Positions 2,747 to 18,031 of a stretch of 26,036 nt of DNA are shown here, piece by piece (position 1 is the first letter of the stretch; each line of letters begins with the position of its first letter). The DNA is from a virus. The stretch is from IMG/VR virus record IMGVR_UViG_3300020202_000203, positions 1 through 26,036 of that record; one strand, 5' to 3'. A program made the position numbers and the translations under genes. A model generated the notes under the pieces. That model saw only the letters and a program-made list of their open reading frames with translations, was not told the DNA's origin and made no database searches.

Positions 2747-3640
2747 GTGCCGCATACCCCGCATGAGCCCGGCACCACCCCCAGCGGCCACCGCAGCAAG
2801 CCGCACACCCTGGCGCCCTTGGGTCGCAAACAGGCGTCCGATCACGCCCACTGGCAGGCGGTCGCCCGCCAGATCGTGCACGACTACCCGCGCCCGCTCT
2901 ACTTGGAGATTCTGGGGACCACGCTCACGCAGATCCGCGCCACCATCGCCCGGCATGGCTGGAAGCGGCTGGCGTTCGGCTGGTCGGGCGGCAAGGATTC
3001 GGTGGCGTTGGAGTTCGTGATGCGGGCGGCGGGCATCTCCGAATGCGTGCTCGTCATCTCCCGGCTCGAATACCGCGCCTTCCTGGAATGGGTGACGGAC
3101 CACATGCCCCGCCGCCTCACCGTCGTCCAGACCGGCCAGGATCTGCGCTGGCTCGCCGCCCACCCGGAGATGCTGTTCCCCAAAGACGCGGCCACCGCCG
3201 GCAAGTGGTTCAAGCTGGTGCAGCACACCGGGCAGGACCGGTATTACCGCGAGGAGCGGCTGGACTGCCTGATCCTGGGGCGGCGGCGGGCAGACGGCAA
3301 CCACGTGGGGCCGGCAGGGAGGGATGTGTACACCAACGCCGCCGGGATCACGCGCTGGTCGCCACTGGCACACTGGACCCACGAGCAGCTGCTGGCGTGC
3401 ATCCACTACGAAGGACTGCCACTGCCCCCCACCTACGACTGGCCCCGCGGCTACCAGGTGGGCACCGGACCGTGGCCCGCCCGCCAGTTCGCCGCCTCTC
3501 CCGACGCCGCATGGGATGAGGTCTGGCAGATCGACCCGTCCGTGGTCGAAGATGCCGCCGCCCACCACATCCCCGGCGCAGTCGACGCGTGGAACCGCAA
3601 CGTGCAGGTCCGCCCGTCGCGGTTGTATCACCCCGAGTAG
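2747..3640 (+). CDS. PP-loop ATP pyrophosphatase, PAPS-reductase-like (297 aa)
   Basis: This is a member of the PP-loop (N-type ATP pyrophosphatase) superfamily in its PAPS-reductase-like branch. Such enzymes adenylate a substrate with release of pyrophosphate, followed by attack of sulfur or nitrogen. The signature S-G-G-K-D-S is at residues 80-85. A conserved L-G-R-R-R-A-D-G-N stretch follows at 177-185, and W-S-P-L-A-H-W-T at 204-211 matches the segment that follows the active site in this superfamily. The C-terminal Cys motif of true PAPS reductases is absent, so assimilatory sulfate reduction is unlikely. The GTG start has an AGGAG site at 2735. A class II glutamine amidotransferase starts 11 bases after its stop, which makes this the natural synthetase partner of that ammonia donor. 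The substrate is unknown. Confidence 0.85.
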   Translation: MPHTPHEPGTTPSGHRSKPHTLAPLGRKQASDHAHWQAVARQIVHDYPRPLYLEILGTTLTQIRATIARHGWKRLAFGWSGGKDSVALEFVMRAAGISECVLVISRLEYRAFLEWVTDHMPRRLTVVQTGQDLRWLAAHPEMLFPKDAATAGKWFKLVQHTGQDRYYREERLDCLILGRRRADGNHVGPAGRDVYTNAAGITRWSPLAHWTHEQLLACIHYEGLPLPPTYDWPRGYQVGTGPWPARQFAASPDAAWDEVWQIDPSVVEDAAAHHIPGAVDAWNRNVQVRPSRLYHPE

Positions 3641-3650
3641 GAGGCTCCGT

Positions 3651-4463
3651 ATGTGTGGACTGTTCGGCTATGCCGCCATCGCCCCCGCCCGCGACCCTGG
3701 CCTGCAAGATCACCACCAGCCCGTGCCCGACGCCTGGGTGGACCGCGATGGGCTGCGCCGGCTGGGCCTGGCCGCCGCCGCCGCCTGCCGTCGCGGCCCC
3801 GACGCCTGGGGGTACGCGCTCTACCACGGCGGCAGCGTCTTCACCAATCAGCACGCCGGGGCGTTCGTGTACGACTCGCTGCACGCCTCGCTCAGCCAGT
3901 TCCTCGCCTATCGCATCGACACCTGGGCCACGTCCCTGATCGGCTCCGGGCGGCTGGCAACCTCCGGCTCCCCCGAGGATCACACCAACAACCCGCCGCT
4001 GCGCACCGATACGGTCGCGCTGGTGATGAACGGCGTGGTCCGCGCCCACGAGCAGCAGATCCTGACCGCCCGCTTCGGACTGGCGCTACAGAGCGGCAAC
4101 GATACCGAAATACTGGGACGGCTGATCGATCACGCCCGCTGGAAGATGGGGCATTCGTTCGGCCAGGCGTGCCAGTGGGCCACCGCGCAGCTCACTCCGC
4201 CGTTCGCGGCGCTGCTGCTCGATCTGGTCGACGGCCACGTCTTCGCCACCGGGCACGGCCAGCCGCTGTTCGCGCTCACCGTGCCGGGCGATGGCGTGTA
4301 CTTCACCTCACGCAAGCCGACGCGCACGGACGCCACCCGCACCGGCATCGACCCGTCCGTGGGCAAAGTGCTCACCGTCACCGCGAAGATCGATGATCTG
4401 TCCAACAACATGCTCATGTTCCAGGAGGCCCGCCGTGACCGCGCACTCCCCATCGCCCGATAA
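3651..4463 (+). CDS. Stand-alone class II glutamine amidotransferase (270 aa)
   Basis: The protein begins Met-Cys-Gly-Leu-Phe-Gly, giving the N-terminal nucleophile Cys2 of Ntn-type (GATase II) amidotransferases after Met removal. The rest of the fold's signature is present: R-R-G-P-D (47-51), G-R-L-A-T-S-G (100-106), an N-G pair (127-128) and N-D-T-E-I-L (150-155), as in the glutaminase domains of AsnB, PurF and GlmS. It should hydrolyse glutamine and hand over ammonia. No synthetase or transferase domain is attached; the sequence stops after the glutaminase fold. The PP-loop gene just upstream could supply it, forming a two-gene equivalent of asparagine synthetase. The start is fixed by AGGAGG at 3639-3644 and by the catalytic Cys. 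Confidence 0.9.
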   Translation: MCGLFGYAAIAPARDPGLQDHHQPVPDAWVDRDGLRRLGLAAAAACRRGPDAWGYALYHGGSVFTNQHAGAFVYDSLHASLSQFLAYRIDTWATSLIGSGRLATSGSPEDHTNNPPLRTDTVALVMNGVVRAHEQQILTARFGLALQSGNDTEILGRLIDHARWKMGHSFGQACQWATAQLTPPFAALLLDLVDGHVFATGHGQPLFALTVPGDGVYFTSRKPTRTDATRTGIDPSVGKVLTVTAKIDDLSNNMLMFQEARRDRALPIAR

Positions 4464-5538
4464 CGAAGCGGGGCCGCAGCTGGTCGCCTTTCCCGAGTAC
4501 GCCGCCCATCCTGGCGACGCGGACGTCGAGCAGTGGCGCACCCGCATCGTCGGCGTCGGGTACGAAGACCCTGAGCAGATCATGGCGAACCCGCTCAACT
4601 GGCGGGTGCATCCCCAATCGCAGCAGGCGGCGATGAAGGGGATTCTCCGCTCGATCGGCTGGGTCGATACCGTGATCATCAACCGCACCACCCTGTTTCT
4701 GGTCAACGGTCACATGCGCGTCCAGATCGCGCTATCCGAGCGCCAACGCCGCATCCCCGTGCAGTACGTCGAGCTCACCGAGGCGGAAGAGGCGGCCGTG
4801 CTCAAGACCTTTGATGCCATCGGCCTGCTCGCCGTGCGCGATCCCCGGCTCGATGAGGAGCTGATGGCGGCGGTGGCCGAACGCGACGCCTCTCTGGTCG
4901 ATATCGTGGCCGCCGTCGCCCGCGACCGCGCCGCCACGTCCTTTCTGGACGGGTTGATCGCCGGGGAGGGCGACGCCGACCCGGATCGGATGACCGAAGC
5001 CCAACGGATCGCGGCGGCAGCGGCGCAGCTGGCGGGCGATGACACGGGCGACGATCCGCACGATGACGACGACGGGTGGACCGACGCCCACAATGGCCCC
5101 CAGAGCGACTCAGCGGGCCGAGAAGACGGGTTCACCCCCGATCCGGTGTCCATGGACACCGCCCCCGCCGATACGACCATGATCCCGCTCACTTTCAACG
5201 TCTCCGCCACCGACCGCGCCACCGTCATGCGCGTGCTCAAGGACATTGCCGCCGTGCGGGGGCTGCACTCGGCCGCCGCCGCGCTGGTGTGGCTGTGCGC
5301 CCGCCATTCCCCCGCCGACAGCAGCGTCGATCTGCGGCCCGTCCATGTGGGCGAACCGATCACGCCGCACCCGGTCCCGCTCACGCTCGATCCCACCGTC
5401 CAGGTCGAGGAAGCGCAGCAGCGGGTGGTGGACGGCGTGACCGGCGAGCAGTACATCGCCGTCACGGTCGTGAACGCACACCCCGCGCCGGATGCACTGT
5501 TCGATGACGAAGACCACAAGGATCAATGGGATGACTAA
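4435..5538 (+). CDS. ParB/sulfiredoxin-fold protein with unknown C-terminal domain (367 aa)
   Basis: The GTG at 4435, six bases after AGGAGG (4423-4428), is chosen over an upstream in-frame ATG. Residues about 45-115 form a ParB N-terminal (ParB/Srx) domain: N-P-L-N-W-R-V-H-P (52-60), a helix ending S-I-G-W, and the phosphate-binding-type turn N-G-H-M-R (91-95), usually G-H-x-R in this fold. A very acidic linker (about 202-225) leads to a second domain at about 245-360 that I do not recognise. In phages this ParB domain is often fused to DNA methyltransferases; none is fused here. It overlaps the preceding GATase gene and the following IbrA-like gene, so all three are probably co-translated. 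Confidence 0.8.
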   Translation: MTAHSPSPDNEAGPQLVAFPEYAAHPGDADVEQWRTRIVGVGYEDPEQIMANPLNWRVHPQSQQAAMKGILRSIGWVDTVIINRTTLFLVNGHMRVQIALSERQRRIPVQYVELTEAEEAAVLKTFDAIGLLAVRDPRLDEELMAAVAERDASLVDIVAAVARDRAATSFLDGLIAGEGDADPDRMTEAQRIAAAAAQLAGDDTGDDPHDDDDGWTDAHNGPQSDSAGREDGFTPDPVSMDTAPADTTMIPLTFNVSATDRATVMRVLKDIAAVRGLHSAAAALVWLCARHSPADSSVDLRPVHVGEPITPHPVPLTLDPTVQVEEAQQRVVDGVTGEQYIAVTVVNAHPAPDALFDDEDHKDQWDD

Positions 5539-6796
5539 GGGGCAGCTGGGCGGACGCGGGCGCGGGGTGCGCAAGACCTTCGGGCGGGTCCAGGTGGATA
5601 CCGACGTGTGGACGCTGGCGCTCGACCGGATGCGCCACGTCTATGACATCTTCGATCACGTCGCCGTGGCGTTCTCCGGCGGCAAGGACTCCACCGCCGC
5701 GCTCAACGTGGCGCTGACCGTGGCCCGCGAGCGCCACCGGTTGCCGCTCGACGTGGTGTTCTGGGACGAAGAGGCGATCCCGCTGCAGACCGCGGAGTAC
5801 GTCACCCGCGTGGCGTTCCTTCCTGAAATCGCGTTGCGCTGGCTCTGTCTGCCGGTGCAGCACCGCAACGCCTGTTCCCGTGCGCACCCCTACTGGTGGC
5901 CGTGGGCACCCGAAGACCACGACAAGTGGGTACGTCCGCTGCCGCCCTCGCGGCGGGCCGGTCCCCTGGTGATCACGGAGCTCGACGGCTTCCCGCTCAA
6001 CCCGCCCGCCGCCCGTCTCACCATCCCGGATGCTGCCGGGCTGCTCTGGGACCCCGCGCAGGGACAGACGGCGATGGTGATGGGCATTCGCGCCCAGGAG
6101 AGCATCATCCGGCTGCGCGCCGTCAGCAACCGCCAGGCCGACAACTACATCGTGCCCGACACCGGCAAAAGCAACCGGGGCCATCTCACCAAGGTGTACC
6201 CGATCTATGACTGGACCACCCAGGACGTGTGGACCGCCCCTGCCCGCTTCGGGTGGGACTACAACCGCGCCTATGACGCGCTCGAGATGGCGGGGCTGTC
6301 CCCGTCGATGCAACGCTGCTCGCCGGCGTTCGGTGAGGAGCCGTTGCAAAAGCTGTGGACCTACGCGCACTGCTTCCCCGAGGTCTGGGGACCGATGCAA
6401 GAACGGGTGCCGGGTGCGGCGGCGGCGGCCCGCTACGCGCTCACCGAGCTGTACGCCTACGGCAAGCCGCCGCCCAAACCGGCGGGCATGACCTGGCAGG
6501 AGTTCATCGTCGCCACGCTGCAGAAGTGGCCGGCTGATGTACGCCCCAAGATCGCCGCCCGCATCAAGGGTGAAATCGATCTGCACACCGGCATCACCAC
6601 CGATCCGATCCTCGATTGGGCACCGCACCCGGAGACGGGGGTGTGCTGGACTTATCTGTACACGCTCGCCCACCGGGGCGACTTCAAGAACCGGCGGCAG
6701 GCCGGCATGAACGTGAACACGACCCAGATGGATCGGGAGTGGGAGCGCTACCGTGAAAACCTCACCCAATGGACCGCCGCGCAGCGCGGCATGTAA
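5531..6796 (+). CDS. IbrA-like PP-loop protein (PAPS reductase / DUF3440 type), 421 aa
   Basis: This is the second PP-loop enzyme and is only distantly like the first. The S-G-G-K-D-S motif is at residues 49-54, followed by F-W-D-E-E near 77-81, G-I-R-A-Q-E-S (185-191), V-Y-P-I-Y-D-W-T-T-Q-D-V-W (222-234) and a C-S-P-A-F-G segment near 263-268. Length and motif order fit the IbrA/DUF3440 family, named after the E. coli prophage protein that works with ParB-like IbrB to activate eib genes. ParB/Srx proteins occur immediately upstream and at 7094, reproducing that pairing. The ATG at 5531 overlaps the previous stop (ATGACTAA) and is preferred to an in-frame ATG at 5492. The biochemical reaction of the family is not established. 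Confidence 0.85.
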   Translation: MTKGQLGGRGRGVRKTFGRVQVDTDVWTLALDRMRHVYDIFDHVAVAFSGGKDSTAALNVALTVARERHRLPLDVVFWDEEAIPLQTAEYVTRVAFLPEIALRWLCLPVQHRNACSRAHPYWWPWAPEDHDKWVRPLPPSRRAGPLVITELDGFPLNPPAARLTIPDAAGLLWDPAQGQTAMVMGIRAQESIIRLRAVSNRQADNYIVPDTGKSNRGHLTKVYPIYDWTTQDVWTAPARFGWDYNRAYDALEMAGLSPSMQRCSPAFGEEPLQKLWTYAHCFPEVWGPMQERVPGAAAAARYALTELYAYGKPPPKPAGMTWQEFIVATLQKWPADVRPKIAARIKGEIDLHTGITTDPILDWAPHPETGVCWTYLYTLAHRGDFKNRRQAGMNVNTTQMDREWERYRENLTQWTAAQRGM

Positions 6797-6977
6797 GCAG
6801 CAGGGGTGTCCAGACAACGGGCGGTTTCATTTCCACACGTGCCCGCTGTCGACGCTGCACTGGCTGTGGCACCGCGATCACCCATTGCAGCGGGATGGGT
6901 GCCCGCTGCCGCAGGCGATGGAGCCGTCGTCTGCCCCGGTGCGCCGCCCGCCGTGGGCTGATCATGTCCCGGCCTAA
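6753..6977 (+). CDS. Small Cys/His/Trp-rich protein, 74 aa
   Basis: The GTG start lies seven bases after GGGAG (6741-6745) and overlaps the IbrA-like gene by 44 bases. The protein has C14 and C19 as a C-x4-C pair and two later Cys (near 30 and 50), with several His and a Trp pair around L-H-W-L-W-H. A small metal-binding fold is possible. A second frame over the same DNA (from 6769) is also Cys-rich, so the reading frame is not certain; this one has the better ribosome-binding site and GC-rich third positions. Function is unknown. Confidence 0.45.
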   Translation: MKTSPNGPPRSAACKQQGCPDNGRFHFHTCPLSTLHWLWHRDHPLQRDGCPLPQAMEPSSAPVRRPPWADHVPA

Positions 6978-7173
6978 GGCGGTGCGCCGCTGCCTGGTCT
7001 GCCGCGCGTACAAGTACGTGATCCGCTCCACGCCGCACTTTATCGTGCTCCGCTGCGGCCACGCGCTCAACCTCTACGCAGGAGAACCCCGCTATGCCCG
7101 CCCCGCCCGACTTCACGCACGACAATCTCCACCCACCCGCGCGCCGCGTCCCCGTGCTCGCTTCCGCGCGTAA
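6964..7173 (+). CDS. Small Cys-containing protein, 69 aa
   Basis: The ATG at 6964 overlaps the end of the previous small gene by 14 bases. The N-terminal part has a C-x2-C pair (near 10 and 13) and a later Cys in R-C-G-H, as in a half zinc ribbon. The C terminus is Arg/Pro-rich and overlaps the next gene by 80 bases, which is unusually long here and is the main reason for doubt. No strong ribosome-binding site precedes it, so translation would rely on coupling. No family is recognised. Confidence 0.4.
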   Translation: MSRPKAVRRCLVCRAYKYVIRSTPHFIVLRCGHALNLYAGEPRYARPARLHARQSPPTRAPRPRARFRA

Positions 7174-7708
7174 ACGGGCGCAGCTGCCCCCGCCACGGGT
7201 GACGGGCCAGGATTCACAGCCCGTGTCCACCGTGATCTGGATGGACCCGGCCGACCTGCACGCCAACGACTACAACCCCAACCACGTCGCGCCGATGGAG
7301 CTGGTGTTGCTGGCGATCTCGATCCTCGAGGACGGCTGGACCCAGCCGATTGTGGCGCGGCTGGACGGCGAGATCGTGGACGGGTTTCACCGCTGGTCGG
7401 TGGGCCAGTGGCCGGAGCTGCTCGCCATGACGGGCGGCAAGGTGCCGGTCGTGCACCTGGTCGCCGCCGATGCCGCCCACCAGCGGATGAGCACCATCCG
7501 CCACAACCGCGCTCGCGGCACCCATGCGGTCGTGCCGATGGCCGATATTGTGGCCTCACTGGTCGAGCTCGGCGTTGCACGTGAAACCATCGCCACCCGG
7601 CTGCAGATGGACGACGAGGAAGTGGACCGGCTGCTGGATCGGGGGCAAATGACGAAGCGCGGTGTCCGGGCTGATGGATCGTTTGGTAATGGTTGGATAC
7701 CGGGTTGA
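7094..7708 (+). CDS. IbrB-like ParB/sulfiredoxin-fold protein (204 aa)
   Basis: The ATG at 7094 follows AGGAG (7080-7084). After a basic, Pro-rich N terminus (1-45) comes a clear ParB N-terminal domain: N-D-Y-N-P-N-H-V (58-65), G-W-T-Q-P-I-V (81-87) and V-D-G-F-H-R-W (95-101), the conserved turn of this fold. The Y-N-P-N and T-Q-P-I-V...D-G-F-H-R wording resembles IbrB in particular. R-H-N-R-A-R-G (136-142) and a helix-turn-helix-like segment (about 150-182) follow. It lies two genes after the IbrA-like PP-loop gene, so the IbrA-IbrB pairing is present here. It could be a DNA-binding partner or a nucleotide-dependent enzyme; nuclease activity is not implied. Confidence 0.85.
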   Translation: MPAPPDFTHDNLHPPARRVPVLASARKRAQLPPPRVTGQDSQPVSTVIWMDPADLHANDYNPNHVAPMELVLLAISILEDGWTQPIVARLDGEIVDGFHRWSVGQWPELLAMTGGKVPVVHLVAADAAHQRMSTIRHNRARGTHAVVPMADIVASLVELGVARETIATRLQMDDEEVDRLLDRGQMTKRGVRADGSFGNGWIPG

Positions 7709-7869
7709 GCCAGCGCAGGGTGGGGCCGGTGTGGTGGGTGCGGGCGATGGCGGCGGCGGCCTGCGCCGCCGTGCTCGACGCGGACGCGCTCCTCACCGGC
7801 TCTCTCCCCGAAATCTGGCGCTGGCCCAAGGCTGAACAGGCACAGAAAGAGGCACCCCGCAATGGCTGA
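7705..7869 (+). CDS. Possible small protein, 54 aa
   Basis: This frame fills the only gap between the ParB-like and cupin genes. A TTG at 7705 overlaps the upstream stop (TTGA) and the frame closes with TGA at 7867-7869, overlapping the cupin start (ATGGCTGA). Both junctions have the coupled geometry used by real gene pairs in this window. The peptide has a V-W-W-V segment, an Ala-rich stretch and a charged C terminus. Internal GTG or ATG starts (for example ATG 7747) are possible. No ribosome-binding site is obvious and no family is recognised. Confidence 0.35.
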   Translation: MSQRRVGPVWWVRAMAAAACAAVLDADALLTGSLPEIWRWPKAEQAQKEAPRNG

Positions 7870-8575
7870 TCTTGCCCCGCGCGATCCGCTCGATGAAGCC
7901 CTGATCGCCCACCGCGCCCCCGCCCCGCTCGCGGACCTGTCCTTCCACCGCTGGGCGCTCAACGGCGGTGCCCGCCACGCCGAGGACGAGGCCGGACGCC
8001 ACGTGCAGGTGCTGCTGGTGCCGATGGGACCGCGCCCGACGCCGCTGGCGCACTCGGTCGCCACCGGGGCCGGTCTGGTCTCCAACGGCCAGCTCGGCGT
8101 GGACGTGATCCGGCTGGGGGCCGGCCAGGGGTTCATGCCCCACACCCACCCCGGCGATCACATCCTGATCGTGGTGGCAGGCATCGGCACGATCACCATC
8201 GGCGGCAAGGTGTACCGCAGCACGGCAGGCACCGCCTACATGGTCGATGGCGCGGTCCCGCACGCGGTCGGGGCGATCACCGATCACGTGATCCTGGCGG
8301 TCGGTGCCCCCCACAAAGCCGTCGATGACCCGGAGCGCATGACCCCGGTGGAGTACACGGCGGTGGCGGCCGAGTACGGCGATCTGTGCTGCACCATCTG
8401 CCCGATGAACGGCGACCGTGCCCGCTTCGCCCTCTACCCGATGATGCTGCACGACATGGACTGCCCGCACTGCCCCTGCCCGCTGTGCATGTCCACCGGC
8501 GACCCCGCCGAGGATGAGCAGCTGCGCCGCAAACTGCGCGGCGACCGCTTCGCCGCCGGGATCGGCGCGCGCTAA
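7862..8575 (+). CDS. Cupin-domain protein with Cys-rich C terminus (237 aa)
   Basis: Residues about 75-150 form a cupin barrel. Motif 1 includes H94-x-H96 and H100, where cupins usually have Glu after the His pair, and motif 2 is P133-H134. Cupins with three His often bind Fe(II), Zn or Mn and act as oxygenases, isomerases or ligand sensors. The C-terminal part is unusual: C-C-T-I-C (176-180) and C-P-H-C-P-C-P-L-C (201-209) form a dense Cys cluster, probably a zinc or iron site. The start has AAAGAGG and the CACCCCGC block just before ATG. It ends the accessory cassette directly before the terminase region. A catalytic role in the same modification pathway is attractive but unproven. Confidence 0.75.
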   Translation: MADLAPRDPLDEALIAHRAPAPLADLSFHRWALNGGARHAEDEAGRHVQVLLVPMGPRPTPLAHSVATGAGLVSNGQLGVDVIRLGAGQGFMPHTHPGDHILIVVAGIGTITIGGKVYRSTAGTAYMVDGAVPHAVGAITDHVILAVGAPHKAVDDPERMTPVEYTAVAAEYGDLCCTICPMNGDRARFALYPMMLHDMDCPHCPCPLCMSTGDPAEDEQLRRKLRGDRFAAGIGAR

Positions 8576-8627: not shown

Positions 8628-9227
8628 ATGCCCACCCGTCCCGATCCGCTCAAGACCGAGTTTGACCTGTCGCCGCGCGCCGTGGCGGTCAAGACGGCGC
8701 GGTCGATCACCGACGTGGAGATCGTGCGCTACCGCATCGCCGGGTGGACCTGGGATCAGATCGCGGACAAGACCCAGCTGGCGGTGGCGACCGTCAAGCA
8801 CCGGTGCAAGCGTGCGCTCGAGGAGCACGGCTCGGTCGATGTGGAGATGCTGCGCAACGAGCAGGACGCGCTGCTGCGCGAGATGCGGCAGACCTACTAT
8901 GCCGACTTCGTGAATCCGCAGCCCGAAACCGGGTTCGCGGACACACTTGCCACCTTGCCCGAATCGGAGCGCACCGCCGTCAAGGTGGCGGAAGCGCTCG
9001 TGATCTTTGCCCGGGAGAAGGCCGCGATCCGCGACCGCGCCGCCGACAAGCTGCTGGCGGTCGAGGACAAGCGCGCCAAGTTGTGGGGCACCTACGCGCC
9101 CGCCCGTCATGAGATGTACGTGTGGGCCGAGGCGGAACGGCTGGCGAAGGCGCTGGGGCTCGATCCCAATGCCATCGTCGCCGAAGCGGAGCGGGTCGTG
9201 CTCGAAGGCCGGCTCCGTACCGATTAG
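8628..9227 (+). CDS. terS: Probable terminase small subunit (199 aa)
   Basis: AGGAG at 8616-8620 fixes the ATG at 8628. Residues about 27-62 form a helix-turn-helix with the pattern seen in small terminases and sigma-like regulators (W-T-W-D-Q-I-A-D-K-T, then V-A-T-V-K-H-R). The rest is almost wholly charged helix with no Cys, as expected for the oligomerisation part of a TerS ring. It is the first gene of the structural region, three genes before the large terminase, where TerS usually lies. No specific TerS family is recognised, so a DNA-binding regulator of the late operon is the alternative. Confidence 0.6.
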   Translation: MPTRPDPLKTEFDLSPRAVAVKTARSITDVEIVRYRIAGWTWDQIADKTQLAVATVKHRCKRALEEHGSVDVEMLRNEQDALLREMRQTYYADFVNPQPETGFADTLATLPESERTAVKVAEALVIFAREKAAIRDRAADKLLAVEDKRAKLWGTYAPARHEMYVWAEAERLAKALGLDPNAIVAEAERVVLEGRLRTD

Positions 9228-10383: not shown

Positions 10384-12087
10384 GTGCGCTCCACCAAGGT
10401 TGCCGCGCAAGACGTGTGGAACGCGCTACCCGCCGCGGTCCTGCGGCTCGTCCATGCCCAGCAGCTGGCGGCGATTGACGACTCGCACGTGATCCGCGCC
10501 CATCAGCGCCAGATCGAGGTCGAGCCGGTCGCCTGGGTGCAAGAGCTGTTCCCCCGCTACGTCACCCACCGCCGCACCGGGGAGTTCGTGCCCTTCGGCG
10601 AGCATCACGAGCAGGCGTGGTCCTGGCTGTGGGCGCTGCGTCCCGGCGTGCGTCCCCGCTCGTTCGTGGGCATGTTTGCGCGCGGTGGCGCGAAATCCAC
10701 CACTGCCGAGCTCGGCTGTGCCGCCGTCGCCGCCCGCCGCACCCGCCGCTATGGACTGTACGTGTCCCGCACCCAGCGCCAGGCCAACGACCACGTGCAG
10801 AACGTGGGCATGATGCTCACGTCCGAGCGGTTCGCCCGCGTCTACCCGGAAGTGGCAGACGCGCGCCGGGGGGAGTACGGCGGGCGGCTGGGCTGGTCGC
10901 GGCAGCGGATCATGACCGCCTCCGGGTTCACGCTCGATGCGATTGGGCTGGACACGGCCGCGCGCGGAGCCAAGATCGATGAGGCCCGCCCCGACTTCCT
11001 CATCCTGGACGATATCGACAAGCCGGAGGACTCCCCGCTCACCATCGCCCGCACCATCGAGATCATCACCAAGGCGCTGATCCCGGCAGGCGCCCCTGAT
11101 CTCGCCATCTTCGCCATCCAGAACAAGATCATGGAGGAGGGATTTTTCGGCCAGCTGGCGAACGGCACCGCCGACTACCTCTCCGACCGGATTCTGTGCG
11201 GGCCGATCCCGGCGATCCGGGACATGGAGTATGAACAGATCGAAGTGCTGGACGATGACCTGGGACCGGCCGCGCCACCGTCTGCTGTCCGCCGCCGGTT
11301 TGTGATCACGGGCGGGACCGCCACCTGGCCGGGGCAGACGGTGGAGGATTGCCAGGAGCTGCTCGATGACATCGGCCTGCGGGCGTTCCTGTCCGAGTGC
11401 CAGCACGAAACCGAGCCGCCTCCGGGGGGCATGTATGATCACATCCAGTTCGCCCGTCTGCCGTGGGACGCGGTGCCCTGGCGACGGATCATCCGCACCG
11501 TGGTGTGGACCGACCCGGCTGTCACCGATAAGCACGGCTCGGACGCGCACGGCATCATTGCCGATGCGATTGACCTGGACGGCATGATCTACCGGCTGTG
11601 GGCCTGGGAGCGCCAGAGCACTCCGTTTGAGACGATGTGCCTGGCGATTCTGATGGCGGTGCGGCTGGGGGCGGAGGCGGTCGGCATCGAGACCGATCAG
11701 GGGGGTGACACATGGAAGAGCGTGTTCCGAGAAGCGGCCCGCGAGCTGGTGCGGCGGGGCGATCTGCCGGTGGGGACGCGGCTGCCGATCTTCCGCGAAG
11801 CGAAGGCGGGATCGGGGTGGGGCGGCAAGGTGCACCGCGCCCAGCAGATGCTGACCGACTACGAGCAGGACAAGATCGTGCACGTGTTCGGCGGCAAGGC
11901 CGGCTCGACGCTGACGACGCTGGAGCGGGCGCTGCGCCGCTTCCCCAAGACCAAGCCGCTCGACCTGGCCGACGCCGCCTTCTGGGGCTGGTCGGATCTG
12001 CGCCGCCCGAAGGGGACCAAGGCCCCGACCGAGGACCCGGAGCTGACCCGCACGATCATGGGCAAGATGCGGGAGCGGGAGTGGTGA
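10384..12087 (+). CDS. terL: Terminase large subunit (567 aa)
   Basis: This is the ATP-driven DNA-packaging motor and headful or cos nuclease. A Walker A-type loop F-A-R-G-G-A-K-S-T (98-106) and Walker B F-L-I-L-D-D-I-D (205-212), with the acidic pair, form the N-terminal ATPase. The C-terminal RNase H-like nuclease is visible as V-V-W-T-D-P-A-V-T-D (373-382), G-I-E-T-D-Q-G-G-D in the middle of the domain, and D-L-A-D-A-A-F-W-G-W near the end, giving the spaced acidic residues for two metals. Length is normal for the family. GTG start with AGGAAAGG upstream. It leads into the portal region, as in Mu-like head modules. Confidence 0.93.
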   Translation: MRSTKVAAQDVWNALPAAVLRLVHAQQLAAIDDSHVIRAHQRQIEVEPVAWVQELFPRYVTHRRTGEFVPFGEHHEQAWSWLWALRPGVRPRSFVGMFARGGAKSTTAELGCAAVAARRTRRYGLYVSRTQRQANDHVQNVGMMLTSERFARVYPEVADARRGEYGGRLGWSRQRIMTASGFTLDAIGLDTAARGAKIDEARPDFLILDDIDKPEDSPLTIARTIEIITKALIPAGAPDLAIFAIQNKIMEEGFFGQLANGTADYLSDRILCGPIPAIRDMEYEQIEVLDDDLGPAAPPSAVRRRFVITGGTATWPGQTVEDCQELLDDIGLRAFLSECQHETEPPPGGMYDHIQFARLPWDAVPWRRIIRTVVWTDPAVTDKHGSDAHGIIADAIDLDGMIYRLWAWERQSTPFETMCLAILMAVRLGAEAVGIETDQGGDTWKSVFREAARELVRRGDLPVGTRLPIFREAKAGSGWGGKVHRAQQMLTDYEQDKIVHVFGGKAGSTLTTLERALRRFPKTKPLDLADAAFWGWSDLRRPKGTKAPTEDPELTRTIMGKMREREW

Positions 12088-12813: not shown

Positions 12814-14529
12814 ATGTCGCTCAATGTCACCCCGCAGGCCGCCGCTCCGCGTGTGCGCACGGGCCGCGCCTGGGCGGCAGCCGCTGAATATGCCGATGCG
12901 GTGCGCGCCGCCGAACAGCACCTGGCCGCTGGCGCCACCGCCGGCGCAGGCAGTGGCCGTACCAGTACGGGCAGCGGCCAGCGGGCCACCGCCGCCACCA
13001 TCGGCGCACCCCCCGGCTCCCTCACCCCGGACGGTGCCCCCCGGCTCCGCCAGGTGCCGCCCACCACCTGGTTCCGCGACCGGGGCGCAACCGGCACCAC
13101 CTACTACTCCGGGTTCCTGGCCGGCGAGGAGTACCTGGCCGAGCTGCAAGGGCTGCAGGGCATCCAAACCTACACCAAGATGTTCAAGTCGGACGGCACC
13201 GCCCGCGCCGTCGAGAAAGCTCTGATCCTGCCGCTGCTGGCCGCCCAATGGCGGGCGCTGCCCGCGTCCGATAAGCCGCGCGATGTCGAGATCGCGAAGT
13301 TTGTCGAATACAACTTCTACAACATGCTGCATACCTGGTCGGTGACGTTGCGCCATATCCTCTTCATGCTGCGCTACGGCCATTCGGTCATGGAAAAGGT
13401 GTGGGAGGAACGGGGCGGCCAGTACTGCTACCGCAAATGGGGACCACGCCTGCCCCAGACCATCTATCGCTGGTACTTTGACGAGGAAGGCGAGCCGGTC
13501 GGCATCCAGCAACGGGTGTGGCGGCCCGAAAAGAGCGGGTTCGGCGTGATCGCCGTGGGCAAATACGACTACATCGACATTGAGCGGGAACGGCTGATCT
13601 TGTTCGCCCACGACCGGGAAGGCAGCAACTACCTGGGCGAAAGCATTGGCCGCCCGATGTACAAACACTGGTGGTTGAAGAACAACACCGAGCGGATCAT
13701 GTCGATTGGCGTCGAACGGCGCGAAGTCGGCATCGAATACGCCCACATGAAAGAAGAGGCGTCGGATGAGGACGCCCAAAACGTGCAAGACAGCCTCATG
13801 CGGCTGCACGCCCACGAAAAGGGGTTTCTGATCCTGCCGTGGACCGTGGAAGAGGCGGGCATCTTCGGCCAGGGCGGCACGTCTACCCGCCAATCGTCCT
13901 CGATGCTGTTCTTGGAGTTCCAGAAGCGGGAGATGGCCGTTTCGGCGCTGGCCGAGTTCCTGGCGATGGGCCAGGGCGCATCCGGCGGGCTTTCCCAGCA
14001 TCGGGACAAGACGTCGTTCTTTCTGATGGGGTTGCGCTATATCGCGGACAACATCTGCGACACGATCAACAAAGAGGCGATCCGGCCGCTGGTCGATTAC
14101 AACTACCCCGGCGTGACCGAGTACCCGCGCTGGACGTGCTCGCGCTTGGAGACGCGCGAGCTCAACACCTTCGTGGATGCGGTGGTCAAGCTGATGGCGG
14201 CGGGCGCACTCACCAACCGGCGCATCATCCAGGAGGCGGCCCGCGCCGAGCTCAACCTGCCGGAAATGACGGCCGAAGAGGTCGATCAGATCAACATGGA
14301 GGAAGAGCAGGAGCGGCAGGCGGCGGCCGAGGAACGCAAGCTGCGCATCGCCGGCATGCAGGTGGGCAACGAGGCGAGCGCGGCCGAGGTCGAAGCCTAC
14401 CGCAAGGGGCTGGGCGGCATCTCCCCGACCAAGCGGGGCAAGCCGCCCGCGTCCCGTCCCGCCTCCCAGAGCGGACCGTCTACCCCGACGAAGGCGGCCC
14501 GCAAGAGCACGAAGGAACAGGCAGCATGA
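12814..14529 (+). CDS. Portal protein, Mu gp29-like (DUF935), 571 aa
   Basis: The portal forms the dodecameric vertex ring through which DNA enters and leaves the head. The first 80 residues are low complexity (Ala/Gly/Thr). From about residue 85 the sequence follows the Mu gp29/DUF935 pattern: a D-G-T-A-R-A-V-E-K-A segment, R-Y-G-H-S-V-M-E-K-V-W near 190, D-R-E-G-S-N-Y-L-G-E-S near 269, and F-L-I-L-P-W near 340. The last 80 residues are a charged helix followed by a Ser/Pro/Lys tail, usual for portals. AAGGAG (12799-12804) and CACCCCGC precede the ATG. It follows terL and precedes the protease, as in Mu-like head modules. No MuF-type minor head gene follows it. Confidence 0.88.
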   Translation: MSLNVTPQAAAPRVRTGRAWAAAAEYADAVRAAEQHLAAGATAGAGSGRTSTGSGQRATAATIGAPPGSLTPDGAPRLRQVPPTTWFRDRGATGTTYYSGFLAGEEYLAELQGLQGIQTYTKMFKSDGTARAVEKALILPLLAAQWRALPASDKPRDVEIAKFVEYNFYNMLHTWSVTLRHILFMLRYGHSVMEKVWEERGGQYCYRKWGPRLPQTIYRWYFDEEGEPVGIQQRVWRPEKSGFGVIAVGKYDYIDIERERLILFAHDREGSNYLGESIGRPMYKHWWLKNNTERIMSIGVERREVGIEYAHMKEEASDEDAQNVQDSLMRLHAHEKGFLILPWTVEEAGIFGQGGTSTRQSSSMLFLEFQKREMAVSALAEFLAMGQGASGGLSQHRDKTSFFLMGLRYIADNICDTINKEAIRPLVDYNYPGVTEYPRWTCSRLETRELNTFVDAVVKLMAAGALTNRRIIQEAARAELNLPEMTAEEVDQINMEEEQERQAAAEERKLRIAGMQVGNEASAAEVEAYRKGLGGISPTKRGKPPASRPASQSGPSTPTKAARKSTKEQAA

Positions 14530-14741
14530 CCATGACGTACCAGACCCCGCGCCCCGCACCTGCCAGCCCGCCGCCCACCGCCGCCGTGCGCTGCCCGAAT
14601 GTGGTGCATGACCGCGCTTCGCGGCGCACGTGTAACACCCGCTGCGGCGATGTGGAGTGCGGGGCCTATTACGCCTTTGTCTGCCCCCGGTGCAACCACC
14701 GGTTTGAGGGGTATGCACCGGGCGGTGACACAGCAGCGTAG
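14526..14741 (+). CDS. Small zinc-ribbon protein, 71 aa
   Basis: ATG overlaps the portal stop (ATGA), so it is coupled to the portal. A second ATG at 14532 is possible. After a Pro-rich start come Cys residues at about 24, 37, 41 and 46, followed by C-P-R-C near 55-58. The last pair and surrounding residues resemble Mu Com, a zinc-binding translational regulator of mom, but the spacing differs, so this is only a loose likeness. It may bind RNA or DNA, or may be a minor head component. It lies just before a structured leader. Confidence 0.65.
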   Translation: MTMTYQTPRPAPASPPPTAAVRCPNVVHDRASRRTCNTRCGDVECGAYYAFVCPRCNHRFEGYAPGGDTAA

Positions 14742-14752
14742 ACGGCGGGGCG

Positions 14753-14827
14753 GGTGCGTCCCGTAGCGTAAAGCTGTCCTGTTGATTGGCTTCTTACGAA
14801 GTCCGAGTTCTACCAACCTCGCGCACC
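14753..14827 (+). ncRNA. Possible four-way RNA junction in the leader of the protease/scaffold gene
   Basis: The gap after the zinc-ribbon gene is lower in GC than its surroundings and can fold into nested stems: GGTGCG (14753-14758) with CGCACC (14822-14827) as the closing stem, TAGC/GCTG (14764-14767/14773-14776), GGCTTC/GAAGTC (14788-14793/14798-14803), and CGAG/CTCG (14804-14807/14818-14821). The outline is cloverleaf-like, but the T arm does not match a tRNA. It could be a leader structure or chance folding. Confidence 0.3.
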
Positions 14828-14844
14828 ACCTGGGATAAAGAGGC

Positions 14845-14871
14845 CCCGCGCACAAGCCGTAAGTGCGCGGG
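14845..14871 (+). promoter_or_regulatory. Hairpin covering the ribosome-binding site of the protease/scaffold gene
   Basis: CCCGCGCAC (14845-14853) and GTGCGCGGG (14863-14871) form a perfect nine-base-pair stem with a nine-base loop. The 3' arm includes the first three bases of the GGGAG (14869-14873) that serves the GTG at 14884. Folding would restrict ribosome access, so it is a candidate translational control element. It lacks a U tract and is unlikely to be a terminator. Confidence 0.5.
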
Positions 14872-14883
14872 AGCTTCTTGCCC

Positions 14884-16452
14884 GTGGCCCTCTCCCCGCA
14901 CGATCTCCAGCTACTGGGCCGCACCACAGCGGCCACCGGCACCGGGACGCAGATCCTCTCTGCGCCCGGTGCCTACGACACGCTGCTGTCCACCTTCCGC
15001 ACCCAGCACGTGTCCGGGGTGGAAGTGCTGGCGGCGGGGACGTGGAACGGCGAGGTCTACACGGTCGAGGACCTCCACCAGCTGGCCGACACCTACAACA
15101 GCGGCAACCTCGGTATCGTCTCCCCGGTCAAGCTCGGCCACGACGAGGATCAGAAGCTCTTGCAAGAGCAGGGGTGGCCGGCAGCCGGCTACATCACCCG
15201 GTTGTGGGTCAACGGCGACAAGCTGCTGGCCGACTTCCGCAACGTGCCGCACCTGATCGCCGAGCTGATCAAGGTCAAGGGGTACCGCACGGTCTCCTCC
15301 GAGATCTACTTCAACGTGCTCAACCCGGCCACCGGGCGGCGGGTGCCGCGCCTGTTCAAAGCGGTGGCGCTGCTGGGCGGCGACATTCCCGCCGTCAACA
15401 GCTTGCGCGAGATCGCCGCGCTCTACACCCGCGCCGACGATGCCCCCACCACCGGGGAGAGCGTCGCGGCGGTGTGGCTGGCGGGCGGCGCGGGCCTTGG
15501 TGCCGCCACCACCCCCGCTGACTTTGCCACCTACACGGCGCACACCGCCGCCTATTACACGGCGGGCCAGCCGGGCACGCCTCCCGCTGCGGCTGGCACT
15601 CACCCGCCGGGTAAATCGGGCGATCCCGTCCCCTCCCCCTCCTCAGCGACGGGATCGCCCGATGCCGCACTTTCCGACGACTCCGATGCGGACAGCGCCG
15701 AGCTGACCACCGAGGAGCTGTCGTTCCTGGATCAGATGCGGTCACTGGTCGAAGCGATGGAAACCGCCGTGCGGGGACGCCCCGGCGTGCGGCGACTGCG
15801 CACCTTCCTGTCCGCATCGATGGAGCAACTGGCGGCGATCAAGCCGCCGCCCAAGCCCACGCCCACGTCCACGTCGCAGGAGAAAGGACACCCCGCCATG
15901 AACGAGCAGATGCTCGCGTTGCTCGGTTTGACCAAGGACGCGACCGAAGCCCAGATCACCGCCGCGGTGCAGGCACTGGCCGAGAAGGCCAAGACCGGCA
16001 CCACGATCACGCCTGCCGCTGGCGCCGGCGACGGCAGCCACATCGCCGCACTCACCGCGCTGATCGAGAAGCAGAACCAGACGGTGGCTGCGCTCACGTC
16101 CCAGGTGCAGAGCCTGGCCGGGACCGTCCAGAGCACGCAGGAAGAGGCGAAGCTGTCCCGCGCCGAGGCCGCCGTCGCCCAGGCCGTCAAGGACGGCAAG
16201 GTCGTTCCGGCCACGCTCGAGTGGGCCAAGAAGTATGCGCTCGAGAACCCGGACGGGTTCAAGGCCTACGTCGAGAGCGTGCCCGCCTTCCCGCTCGGCC
16301 AGGAGAAGGGCAAGGACGGTGAGGCAGACGCCGGCGCGGGCGGCGCACCGGCCGTGACCGCGATGGAGAAGTCGATCGCGGCGCAGCTGGGGCTGTCCGA
16401 GGACAAGCTGGCGGCGAGCAAAGCCCGCAACGCCACGGTCCACACCGCCTAA
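14884..16452 (+). CDS. Head maturation protease with C-terminal scaffold, Mu gpI-like (522 aa)
   Basis: The N-terminal half is a Mu gpI-type prohead protease: L-G-H-D-E-D (84-89), W-P-A-A-G-Y-I-T-R-L (98-107), Y-R-T-V-S-S-E-I-Y-F-N (134-144) and L-G-G-D-I-P-A-V-N (164-172). H86 and S138 or S139 are plausible catalytic residues. A Pro/Ser-rich acidic linker (about 235-290) joins it to a helical scaffold domain that also has its own internal start at 15898. The protease cleaves scaffold and often capsid protein during head maturation. GTG 14884 is preferred to GTG 14863, because GGGAG (14869-14873) lies ten bases before it and 14863 falls inside a hairpin arm. Confidence 0.82.
   Translation: MALSPHDLQLLGRTTAATGTGTQILSAPGAYDTLLSTFRTQHVSGVEVLAAGTWNGEVYTVEDLHQLADTYNSGNLGIVSPVKLGHDEDQKLLQEQGWPAAGYITRLWVNGDKLLADFRNVPHLIAELIKVKGYRTVSSEIYFNVLNPATGRRVPRLFKAVALLGGDIPAVNSLREIAALYTRADDAPTTGESVAAVWLAGGAGLGAATTPADFATYTAHTAAYYTAGQPGTPPAAAGTHPPGKSGDPVPSPSSATGSPDAALSDDSDADSAELTTEELSFLDQMRSLVEAMETAVRGRPGVRRLRTFLSASMEQLAAIKPPPKPTPTSTSQEKGHPAMNEQMLALLGLTKDATEAQITAAVQALAEKAKTGTTITPAAGAGDGSHIAALTALIEKQNQTVAALTSQVQSLAGTVQSTQEEAKLSRAEAAVAQAVKDGKVVPATLEWAKKYALENPDGFKAYVESVPAFPLGQEKGKDGEADAGAGGAPAVTAMEKSIAAQLGLSEDKLAASKARNATVHTA
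15898..16452 (+). CDS. Nested scaffold protein from internal start (184 aa)
   Basis: An in-frame ATG at residue 339 of the protease gene is preceded by AGGAG (15878-15882), AAAGGA (15883-15888) and CACCCCGC, the same start region used by the major capsid gene. This is strong evidence for separate translation of the C-terminal part as a scaffold, as for Mu gpZ inside gpI. The product is helical, with an A-A-L-T-A-L-I-E-K-Q coiled-coil section (about 50-85), an acidic Gly-rich stretch near 145-155, and a short C-terminal helix likely to bind capsid protein. It should be made in excess over the protease and be cleaved or lost during maturation. Confidence 0.75.
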   Translation: MNEQMLALLGLTKDATEAQITAAVQALAEKAKTGTTITPAAGAGDGSHIAALTALIEKQNQTVAALTSQVQSLAGTVQSTQEEAKLSRAEAAVAQAVKDGKVVPATLEWAKKYALENPDGFKAYVESVPAFPLGQEKGKDGEADAGAGGAPAVTAMEKSIAAQLGLSEDKLAASKARNATVHTA

Positions 16453-16496
16453 CCGCCACCGACCGCATCAGCATCGCGGCTGCACCCCGCCGCCCC

Positions 16497-16510
16497 CGCC
16501 ACCGGTGGCG
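16497..16510. promoter_or_regulatory. 14-base palindrome before the decoration-protein candidate
   Basis: CGCCACCGGTGGCG is a perfect palindrome in the gap before the gene at 16534. It may be an operator, or an RNA hairpin with a CCGG loop just upstream of the AAAGGA site. Nothing else shows its role. Confidence 0.35.
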
Positions 16511-16533
16511 CGCGTGAGAAAGGAACCCCCGCA

Positions 16534-16944
16534 ATGGCTGCTTTGACCGCCGATCGCAATCGGCAGCGGCGCGGCACCGTCAAGACGGCGTATATCCCGG
16601 TTGCCGCCACCACCAAGATCTACAAGGGCGCGCTCGTCCAGCTCGACGCCTCCGGCTATGCCTCGAACGCGGTCGCGGGCAACACCCGCAAGATCGTCGG
16701 CGTGGCCGCCGAGCAGGTGGATAACACCGGCGCAGCGGGCGCCAAGTCGATTCTGGTCGAGTTCGATGCCGAGTTCCTGTTCACCGCCTCGTCCATCGCC
16801 CAGGCCAACCTGGGTGGGGCGATGCTGGTGGTGGACAACGACACGGTTGATGAGACCTCGGCCGGCTCCGCCACCGTGGGCGCGCTCATGCAGTTCGTCT
16901 CGGCCACCCAGGGCTGGGTGTACGTCCCCGGCATGACCATCTAA
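16534..16944 (+). CDS. Probable capsid decoration (head-stabilising) protein (136 aa)
   Basis: The start follows GAAAGGAACCCCCGCA, close to the start region of the major capsid gene, which suggests strong expression. The protein is small, beta-rich and low in charge clusters, with repeated Thr/Val/Gly segments such as T-K-I-Y-K-G-A-L-V-Q-L (about 27-37) and no Cys. Small beta proteins directly before or after the major capsid gene are commonly decoration proteins that bind the outer capsid surface and stabilise it. The K-G-A-L-V wording resembles decoration proteins of the DUF2190 kind. A head fibre or other minor capsid protein is the alternative. Confidence 0.65.
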   Translation: MAALTADRNRQRRGTVKTAYIPVAATTKIYKGALVQLDASGYASNAVAGNTRKIVGVAAEQVDNTGAAGAKSILVEFDAEFLFTASSIAQANLGGAMLVVDNDTVDETSAGSATVGALMQFVSATQGWVYVPGMTI

Positions 16945-16954
16945 GCCATCGAAG

Positions 16955-17077
16955 CGCCCGGAGTGGGCGAAAGCGCGGGGCCGGTGCCCGAACACCGCCC
17001 CGCCGCCCGTCCGCTGGTGGGAGACCCCGCGCTGGCCCGAACCGGCGCGGTCAGCCCCCCTCCCATCAGCGGATGGG
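16955..17077 (+). promoter_or_regulatory. Hairpin cluster ahead of the major capsid gene
   Basis: The 163-base gap holds no credible gene but contains three stems. CGCCC/GGGCG (16955-16959/16965-16969) has a five-base loop. GCGGGG plus CGGTG (16975-16980, 16982-16986) pairs with CACCG plus CCCCGC (16993-17003), eleven pairs with one bulged C. CCCATC/GATGGG (17062-17067/17072-17077) has a four-base loop. No U tract follows, so partial termination, RNA processing or mRNA stabilisation are all possible. The last stem ends 14 bases before the AAAGGA site of the capsid gene. Confidence 0.5.
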
Positions 17078-17107
17078 CTCAGGCGAACACAGAAAGGACA
17101 CCCCGCA

Positions 17108-18031
17108 ATGGCTGTCGTGACCTCCGACTTCCTGGCCGCCGTTGTTACTACCTACCGGGCGCTGTGGGAAGACGAGTTCTTGGCCGGTCGTGCCCAGCAG
17201 ATCCGCGGCAAGATCGCCACGGAAGTGCCCAGCACGACCCTGATTGAGACCTACAACTGGCTGGGCAACGTGCCCAAGATGCGGGAGTGGGTCTCGGACC
17301 GCCAGCTCTCCGGTCTGCTCTCCCACAACTACAGCATCACCAACAAGCACTACGAGGCCTCGATTGAGGTCGAGCGCGACACCTACGAGGACGACAAGCT
17401 CAACCTCGTGTCGCCGCGTATCCGCCAGCTAGGCGCAGAAGCCGCCCGCTTCGAGGACGAGCTGACGATCAACGCGATCATCAACGGCACGTCTTCACTG
17501 TGCTATGACGGCCAGTTCTTCTTTGACACCGACCACGCCGAGGGCAACTCCGGCACCCAGAGCAACCTGCTCACCGGCACCGGCACCACCCTGGCGCAGA
17601 TCCGCACCGATTGGGAATCGGCACGGGCGGCGATGCAGAACTTCAAGGACGACGAAGGCCGTCCGATGAGCATCATGCCCACGCACATCCTGGCGCCGCC
17701 GGCGCTGGAAGGTCCGTTCCGGCAGCTGCTCAACTCCGAGTTCTTCAACGCCGGGGCGGTGGCCGCGCCCGTCTCGAACGTGTGGAAGGGCACGGCGGAC
17801 CTGATCATCACGCCGTACCTGACCGACGCCGCCGACTGGTACGTGCTGGCGCTCAACCACCCGGTGAAGCCGCTCATGTTCCAGATGCGCAAGCATCCGG
17901 AGTTTGTGGCGCTCGACAGCCCCACCAGCGAGCAGAACTTCCTGCGCAAGCGCTTCATGTACGGCGTCGATGCGCGGTACAACGTCGGCTATTCGTTCTG
18001 GCAGCTGGCGATCAAGGTCAACAACGCATAA
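17108..18031 (+). CDS. Major capsid protein, Mu gpT-like (307 aa)
   Basis: This HK97-fold capsid subunit follows the Mu gpT pattern: Y-N-W-L-G-N-V-P-K-M-R-E-W (about 49-61), followed by a strand ending in I-E-V-E-R-D-T-Y-E-D-D, and the G-Q-F-F-F-D-T-D-H (about 135-143) typical of this family. The C-terminal Y-G-V-D-A-R-Y-N-V-G-Y-S-F-W-Q segment (about 288-302) is also as expected. Length is normal and no long delta domain is present, agreeing with a separate scaffold. The start region AGAAAGGACACCCCGCA is repeated at the scaffold start and resembles the cupin one. Hairpin clusters lie on both sides. Confidence 0.92.
   Translation: MAVVTSDFLAAVVTTYRALWEDEFLAGRAQQIRGKIATEVPSTTLIETYNWLGNVPKMREWVSDRQLSGLLSHNYSITNKHYEASIEVERDTYEDDKLNLVSPRIRQLGAEAARFEDELTINAIINGTSSLCYDGQFFFDTDHAEGNSGTQSNLLTGTGTTLAQIRTDWESARAAMQNFKDDEGRPMSIMPTHILAPPALEGPFRQLLNSEFFNAGAVAAPVSNVWKGTADLIITPYLTDAADWYVLALNHPVKPLMFQMRKHPEFVALDSPTSEQNFLRKRFMYGVDARYNVGYSFWQLAIKVNNA

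Follow-up and report, generated by a model that had tools for sequence, protein, structure and literature searches.

A 26,036-base fragment of a viral record in IMG/VR (IMGVR_UViG_3300020202_000203; G+C 68%), referred to here in its whole length as the window, carries a run of closely packed genes ahead of its terminase region, and the recurrence and possible function of these genes are the subject of this analysis. The genes encode two PP-loop ATPases (PPL1 and PPL2), a free glutamine amidotransferase of class II (GATase II), two proteins of the ParB/sulfiredoxin (Srx) fold (ParB1 and ParB2) and a cupin. The positions of these genes, the small open reading frames (ORFs) between them and the flanking genes are given in Table 1. 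Because the window is a fragment, the operon may continue outside it.

Table 1. Positions of the module genes, intervening small ORFs and flanking genes in the window (lengths in amino acids, aa)
Feature	Position	Strand	Description
PPL1	2747..3640	+	297 aa; PP-loop ATPase, PAPS-reductase branch; PP-loop SGGKDS at 2984-3001
GATase II	3651..4463	+	270 aa; free class II glutamine amidotransferase; Cys2 nucleophile
ParB1	4435..5538	+	ParB/Srx fold; GTG start chosen
PPL2	5531..6796	+	421 aa; IbrA-type PP-loop ATPase with DUF3440; PP-loop SGGKDS at 5675-5692
Small Cys-containing ORF	6753..6977	+	74 aa; module membership unsupported
Small zinc-ribbon-like ORF	6964..7173	+	69 aa; overlaps ParB2; module membership unsupported
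ParB2	7094..7708	+	IbrB-type ParB/Srx; motifs DGFHRW and HNRARGTH
Small TTG-start ORF	7705..7869	+	54 aa; doubtful
Cupin	7862..8575	+	237 aa; C-terminal tail Cys-rich
Helix-turn-helix protein in the small-terminase position (flanking)	8628..9227	+	Sigma70_r4_2 3e-6; phrog_645 1e-17
Large terminase subunit, divergent (flanking)	10384..12087	+	Weak tblastn matches to annotated large terminases

Gene families of the module

The two PP-loops lie exactly where the original prediction, made from the letters of the window, had placed them. PPL1 matched PAPS_reduct (8e-6) and phrog_424 (4e-18), and PPL2 matched the IbrA-type family phrog_2302 (3e-81) and DUF3440 (1e-7). The AlphaFold2 model of PPL1 (pLDDT 92) had PAPS reductase as its top fold match in the PDB (Z 15.8), that of PPL2 (pLDDT 86) matched FAD synthase/APS reductase (best Z 15), and both adopt the fold of the PAPS/APS reductase (CysH) branch, so that the two enzymes, as modeled, belong to the PAPS-reductase/FAD-synthase/CysD branch. 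The architecture of asparagine synthetase B, in which GATase II is fused to an Asn-synthase PP-loop domain, was not found in the window, where the amidotransferase and the PAPS_reduct-type PP-loops are encoded by separate genes. PP-loop enzymes typically adenylate a substrate, which nitrogen or sulfur then attacks. There was no conserved active-site Cys in an alignment of 76 relatives of PPL1, and the sole near-invariant Cys in that of 104 relatives of PPL2 was Cys106 (99/103). PPL1 is therefore best read as a nitrogen-type transferase, as it has no conserved Cys and the amidotransferase, where present, is its usual company. Real PAPS reductases of sulfur assimilation were rejected as the identity of PPL1 and PPL2, the CysH-type catalytic Cys near the C-terminus not being conserved in either.

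The amidotransferase starts with MCG, has the R, NG and D that class II enzymes conserve in their glutamine site, and matched GATase_6 (4e-6) and glmS (3e-12). ParB1 contains GHMR, a motif of the G-x-H-R type of the ParB/Srx fold, and matched phrog_498 (7e-13) and phrog_620 (1e-8); an alternative in-frame ATG lies upstream at 4291 and would make the gene overlap that of the amidotransferase. ParB2 matched phrog_2159 (3e-56), and both of its motifs are kept across about 100 relatives. The cupin matched Cupin_2 (4e-10), and the active sites in the window proteins are intact. The free GATase II, the two ParB/Srx proteins and the cupin proposed in the original prediction were thus confirmed by family matches and kept residues. 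Its small Cys-rich proteins did not hold as members of the cassette: they are not conserved, and the ORFs at 6753-6977 and 6964-7173 had neither a family match nor a relative in any fetched locus. The ORF at 7705-7869 gave no match in the search of relatives.

Recurrence of the core and exchange of supply genes

Single-protein queries with PPL1 or GATase II gave no match in viral contigs, and the PPL1 query found one relative in the annotated database, MT836198.1 from human faeces (47% identity), in which PPL1, ParB, PPL2 and the beginning of ParB2 follow each other in overlapping frames. A two-member alignment retrieved 17 viral contigs and 5 bacterial genomes, including Streptomyces sp. MP131-18 and Parablautia, and larger alignments yielded 168 loci, which form 108 groups at 90% anchor-protein identity. 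The loci were retrieved with PPL1 or PPL2 as bait, and the context counts refer to the 70 groups with enough flanking sequence. ParB1 was found in all 70, ParB2 in 69 and PPL1 in 53. The sole locus without ParB2 (L021, from Streptomyces, whose PPL2 is 59% identical to that of the window) runs into masked N, and in every other locus with context PPL2 is followed by ParB2, with two small ORFs intervening in the window. Across 379 adjacent pairs of module genes the median gap was -10 bases and 87% of the gaps were 50 bases or less, the overlap being somewhat overstated because the longest ORFs were used. Two separate tblastn searches of the whole database of 50,697 cultured-phage records, free of the bias of the bait, found PPL2 in 211 and ParB2 in 222, nearly the same phages, with identical counts for the host genera Flavobacterium (90/90), Mycobacterium (55/55), Streptococcus (21/21) and Arthrobacter (12/12).

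These comparisons indicate that the grouping of the module genes is not due to chance and that the true core is ParB1-PPL2-ParB2, with PPL1, GATase II, the cupin and a transporter as variable modules. The overlapping or abutting gene cluster described in the original prediction therefore recurs in its core in 108 independent groups, and the co-occurrence search that it had called for found the gene order kept over distant phages, not genes scattered in relatives. The full gene set that it had treated as a unit holds for the core, with PPL1, GATase II (9 of the 70 groups) and the cupin being variable; the transporter, a variable gene of other loci, was invisible from the window alone. Plasmid-style partitioning is an unlikely role for the two ParB proteins, since ParA does not appear in the set of neighbours that recur and enzymes are the partners of these proteins.

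Four layouts were distinguished. In layout A, found chiefly in phages of Bacillota, the order is Symporter-PPL1-ParB1-PPL2-ParB2-TerS-TerL, and in layout B, found in high-G+C actinobacterial phages, it is ParB1-(cupin)-PPL1-GATase II-PPL2-ParB2. The window has layout B with ParB1 shifted behind the amidotransferase and the cupin shifted to the end. Layout C (ParB1-bicupin-PPL2-ParB2) is without PPL1, and layout D (L108-L113) is ParB1-transporter-PPL2-ParB2. Two kinds of transporter occur, one from the SSF family (Na+/solute-symporter type) with some 460 aa and another membrane protein with some 331 aa. When every cupin type is included, a transporter is encoded in 42 of the 70 groups and a cupin in 27, the two are never combined, and L091 alone has neither; the 28 loci that lack a transporter thus include 27 with a cupin, of various types. 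Among the loci with PPL1, GATase II, searched with a profile built from MCG-start proteins, was present in 8 of the 14 that have no transporter and in 0 of the 39 that have one, and its relatives adjoin PPL1 (L021, L018, L029/L046, L041/L153, L045/L103, L092, L093, L102, L119 and L120). On the PPL2 tree the transporter/cupin pattern needs at least 4-5 switches, with the transporter loci L128 and L111 falling inside the cupin branch and L168, a cupin locus on a long branch, inside that of the transporters, which argues that the exclusion is more than one ancient split. As judged from these patterns, the supply modules substitute for one another. The top solved match of the symporter was the urea symporter DUR3 (1e-27), and its substrate is not readable from this because choline, glucose and multivitamin carriers follow; DUR3-type urea transport was set aside as the substrate identity, urea being a lead only. 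The bicupin as ureidoglycine aminohydrolase YlbA (E 0.086) was unusable.

Some loci depart from these layouts. In L045 (10379-14564; the same contig as L103) three tandem copies of PPL2 in one operon are flanked by the amidotransferase and ParB2, which suggests several related substrates or target sites. In L023 (1819-3820) a second PPL2-like ORF adjoins a small protein that resembles, by eye, an ASCH domain, a fold proposed as a reader of modified bases. Genes annotated as methyltransferases lie by ParB2 or between PPL2 and ParB2 in Arthrobacter phage Laroye (L183, 5078-5656) and Bacillus phage 055SW001 (L187, 3539-4090), where an extra tailoring step is possible. Gp104 of Mycobacterium phage Gaia (L171, 6326-7225) is an ectoine-synthase-like cupin fused to ParB2 and adjoins an IbrA-type gene, an ectoine role being unlikely, and in XCL1123 a cupin adjoins ParB2. 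In L027 (8980-11053) PPL1 and GATase II are found with PPL2 and ParB2 absent within about 8-9 kb, possibly as a stand-alone pair.

The slot beside the terminase genes and the proposed DNA modification

The module often adjoins terminase genes, in numerous phages directly upstream of them; this is seen in loci of every main variant and with differing terminase families. When relatives were picked by their terminase, the same slot was found to hold other cassettes with a ParB1 homologue. In Enterococcus phage phiEf11, whose large terminase subunit (TerL) is 52% identical to that of L009, a ParB1 homologue (3e-32) overlaps Mom (PF25680, 2e-45) directly upstream of the terminase region (L178, NC_013696.1 40389-41505). 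Mom is a family known to modify phage DNA. In Faecalibacterium phage Roos (L177, PP479939.1 51706-54302) the genes annotated as hypothetical in the record include one homologous to ParB1 (4e-34), one for a TGT/DpdA-like protein (phrog_887, 2e-18) and one for a transporter of the YhhQ family (PF02592, 2e-42). The DpdA family modifies phage DNA, and some phages encode the preQ0 importer YhhQ (PMC6884629). The Roos cassette is thus likely, from its gene content, to be a 7-deazaguanine DNA modification fed by import, and by analogy it is a direct counterpart of layout A, with importer, ParB1, modifying enzyme and terminase. A ParB1 homologue also adjoins TGT in phiFN37. Since the same slot holds ParB1 homologues with Mom or with TGT/DpdA-like proteins, ParB1 appears to be a partner of known families of DNA-modification enzymes. 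The same slot of Phage C72C1 (L181, 945-1619), upstream of TerS, encodes a short protein that resembles PAPS reductase, with a DNA methyltransferase nearby.

As far as the gene comparisons go, PPL1, ParB1, PPL2 and ParB2 travel as a unit across hosts and terminase types together with a supply unit, usually by the terminase. We propose that the module is a phage nucleic-acid hypermodification operon that most likely acts on the phage's own DNA before packaging, and we put the probability of this reading at about 0.6. For the narrower proposal of an undescribed class of DNA hypermodification, where a pair of PP-loop ATPases, with one ParB/Srx partner apiece, install a new group on the base (or on sugar or backbone) from an interchangeable source, we see roughly even chances. 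Under this scheme, the ParB/Srx proteins would bind or open DNA for their PP-loop partners, or power them, a role that follows from their superfamily and from the usage of DpdB-like proteins (PMC12839542). PPL2 would adenylate a group on DNA or on a precursor as the common first change, and PPL1, where present, would carry out a second transfer of the nitrogen type. The variant of the window would use ammonia from the amidotransferase as the nucleophile, the other variants a small molecule that is imported or processed by a cupin, and the product would shield the phage DNA against nucleases of restriction or CRISPR systems.

The original prediction had suggested one pathway with possible DNA hypermodification. 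This central claim has gained strong comparative support, including the association of ParB1 with Mom and TGT, and has stood up better than expected; the link to DNA is one of analogy and association, because it derives from the position of the slot and the company found there. Several points weigh against the proposed DNA modification. No module gene by itself is a proven DNA modifier, and PP-loop enzymes of the PAPS-reductase branch have small molecules and tRNA among their substrates too. A cupin may be a sensor, and the best-known PP-loop/ParB pair of this kind, IbrA/IbrB of E. coli, has a described role in regulation. The loci were fetched with PPL1 or PPL2, so that co-occurrence with these baits is inflated, and the Fisher value for the transporter/cupin exclusion (1.5e-18) is inflated because the split largely tracks two deep PPL2 branches. 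L027, which has long flanks, contains PPL1 and GATase II without PPL2, and PPL2, with its near-invariant Cys106, may transfer sulfur.

Regulation would mean that the PP-loop/ParB pairs co-activate late phage or host genes, with a sensed small molecule tuning the choice between lysis and lysogeny. The annotation of IbrA/IbrB as co-activators of prophage gene expression, the matches of the cupin to AraC-binding and PuuR domains and the position of the module right before the late genes are all consistent with this. However, two enzymes of the ATP-pyrophosphatase type together with an intact amidotransferase and a symporter of 460 aa would be a metabolic excess for a regulator, and the partners of ParB1 homologues in this slot are Mom and TGT/DpdA-like proteins; we regard a regulatory module as improbable. 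A target other than DNA (RNA, protein or a free nucleotide or signal, for example in an anti-defence or inter-phage weapon made from an imported metabolite) would agree with the presence of the tRNA-modifying PP-loop enzymes TilS, TtuA and NcsA among the fold matches and with the fact that ParB/Srx proteins can be NTPases. This is unlikely in our view, as DNA is favoured by the adjacency to terminase genes across terminase families and by ParB1 being common to known families of DNA-modification enzymes.

Modification of the DNA backbone was also considered, with PPL2 acting as a DndC-like sulfur transferase that places a phosphorothioate (or related group) in phage DNA and host IscS as the sulfur source. 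PPL2 has weak similarity to DndC and BrxP, its near-invariant Cys106 would suit such a role, and DndB is classed among ParB proteins (PMC10853773). Yet the DndC score is far under the family cut-off (24.6 vs 290.4 bits), which led us to reject Dnd phosphorothioation as the identity of the module, the PADLOC match to DndC (8e-7) extends over 60 residues only, and an amidotransferase and a cupin are ill-suited to sulfur transfer. Moreover, DndD, DndE and cysteine desulfurases did not appear in the neighbour families that recur, which come from fragment contigs, and the DndD/E models were not searched over all loci; in sum, we regard this chemistry as improbable. Finally, the genes might be unlinked morons gathered by chance in a packaging-proximal slot that takes varied cargo in relatives (Mom, TGT, methyltransferase). 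The fixed order, the overlapping genes, the near-obligate pairing of PPL2 with ParB2 and the pattern of replacement make such an assembly of independent accessory genes extremely improbable.

Comparison with described systems, and flanking genes

The PPL2-ParB2 pair equals IbrA/IbrB in its families and order, but in the module ParB1 accompanies it, as do PPL1 and a supply gene in most cases, and the whole lies at the terminase, whereas the published role of IbrA/IbrB is gene regulation. The original prediction had known this pair only from the regulation of eib genes in E. coli, a view that proved too narrow given its spread among cultured phages. With the Dpd system (DpdA, the ParB-like DpdB and the importer YhhQ) the module shares a ParB-like partner, the packaging-proximal slot and a precursor transporter as in Roos, but it has PP-loop enzymes instead of TGT and its transporter is of an unrelated family (SSS). 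No TGT-type protein was among the module genes, the window being a fragment. Mom with ParB in phiEf11 has the same genomic slot and a partner of the ParB1 family, but Mom is an acyltransferase-type enzyme and does not belong to the PP-loop enzymes. In the carboxymethylcytosine pathway of CmoA, CmoX and CmoY, also in phages, ParBc proteins adjoin CmoX/CmoY and one subgroup of CmoY bears a glutamine amidotransferase domain of class II (PMC12783734). A further point in common is that CmoY is an AMP-forming amide ligase homologous to asparagine synthetase. The module PP-loops, however, are of the PAPS-reductase branch and the amidotransferase is a separate gene. CmoA, CmoX and a methyltransferase were not found among the module genes of the window, the contig being incomplete. 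DndC/SspD phosphorothioation likewise uses a PP-loop enzyme of the PAPS-reductase branch on DNA, as we infer for the module, but DndD/E and SspB/C were not seen beside the module. Asparagine synthetase B, NAD synthetase and GMP synthetase use glutamine-derived ammonia with a PP-loop enzyme, as proposed for the module, but their PP-loops are of another branch and the module has separate genes.

No description of the operon was found in the open-access literature. Iyer et al. (2013) reportedly predicted lysidine-like modified pyrimidines in phages, so that part of the system may have been predicted computationally before. If the proposed DNA modification is correct, it would represent a widespread added chemistry in phages of actinobacteria, Bacillota and other hosts, cultured ones that infect Mycobacterium smegmatis, Arthrobacter and Bacillus among them. 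IbrA/IbrB, so far known as a regulator only, would then gain a biochemical function, and there would be an explanation for the 'PAPS reductase' and 'ParB partition' genes in many phages that have neither sulfur metabolism nor partitioning. The swappable supply modules would make the substrate tractable, as the cargo of the symporter would constrain the nucleophile of the other variants, and ParB1 would become a candidate for a general partner of DNA modifiers in phages and could serve as a marker in the search for others.

Downstream of the module, a Pfam search gave no match for the large terminase (10384..12087), which is very divergent, and the region from 12814 to 18031 encodes a Mu-type portal, protease and major head protein (Portal_Mu, Mu-like_Pro and Mu-like_gpT).

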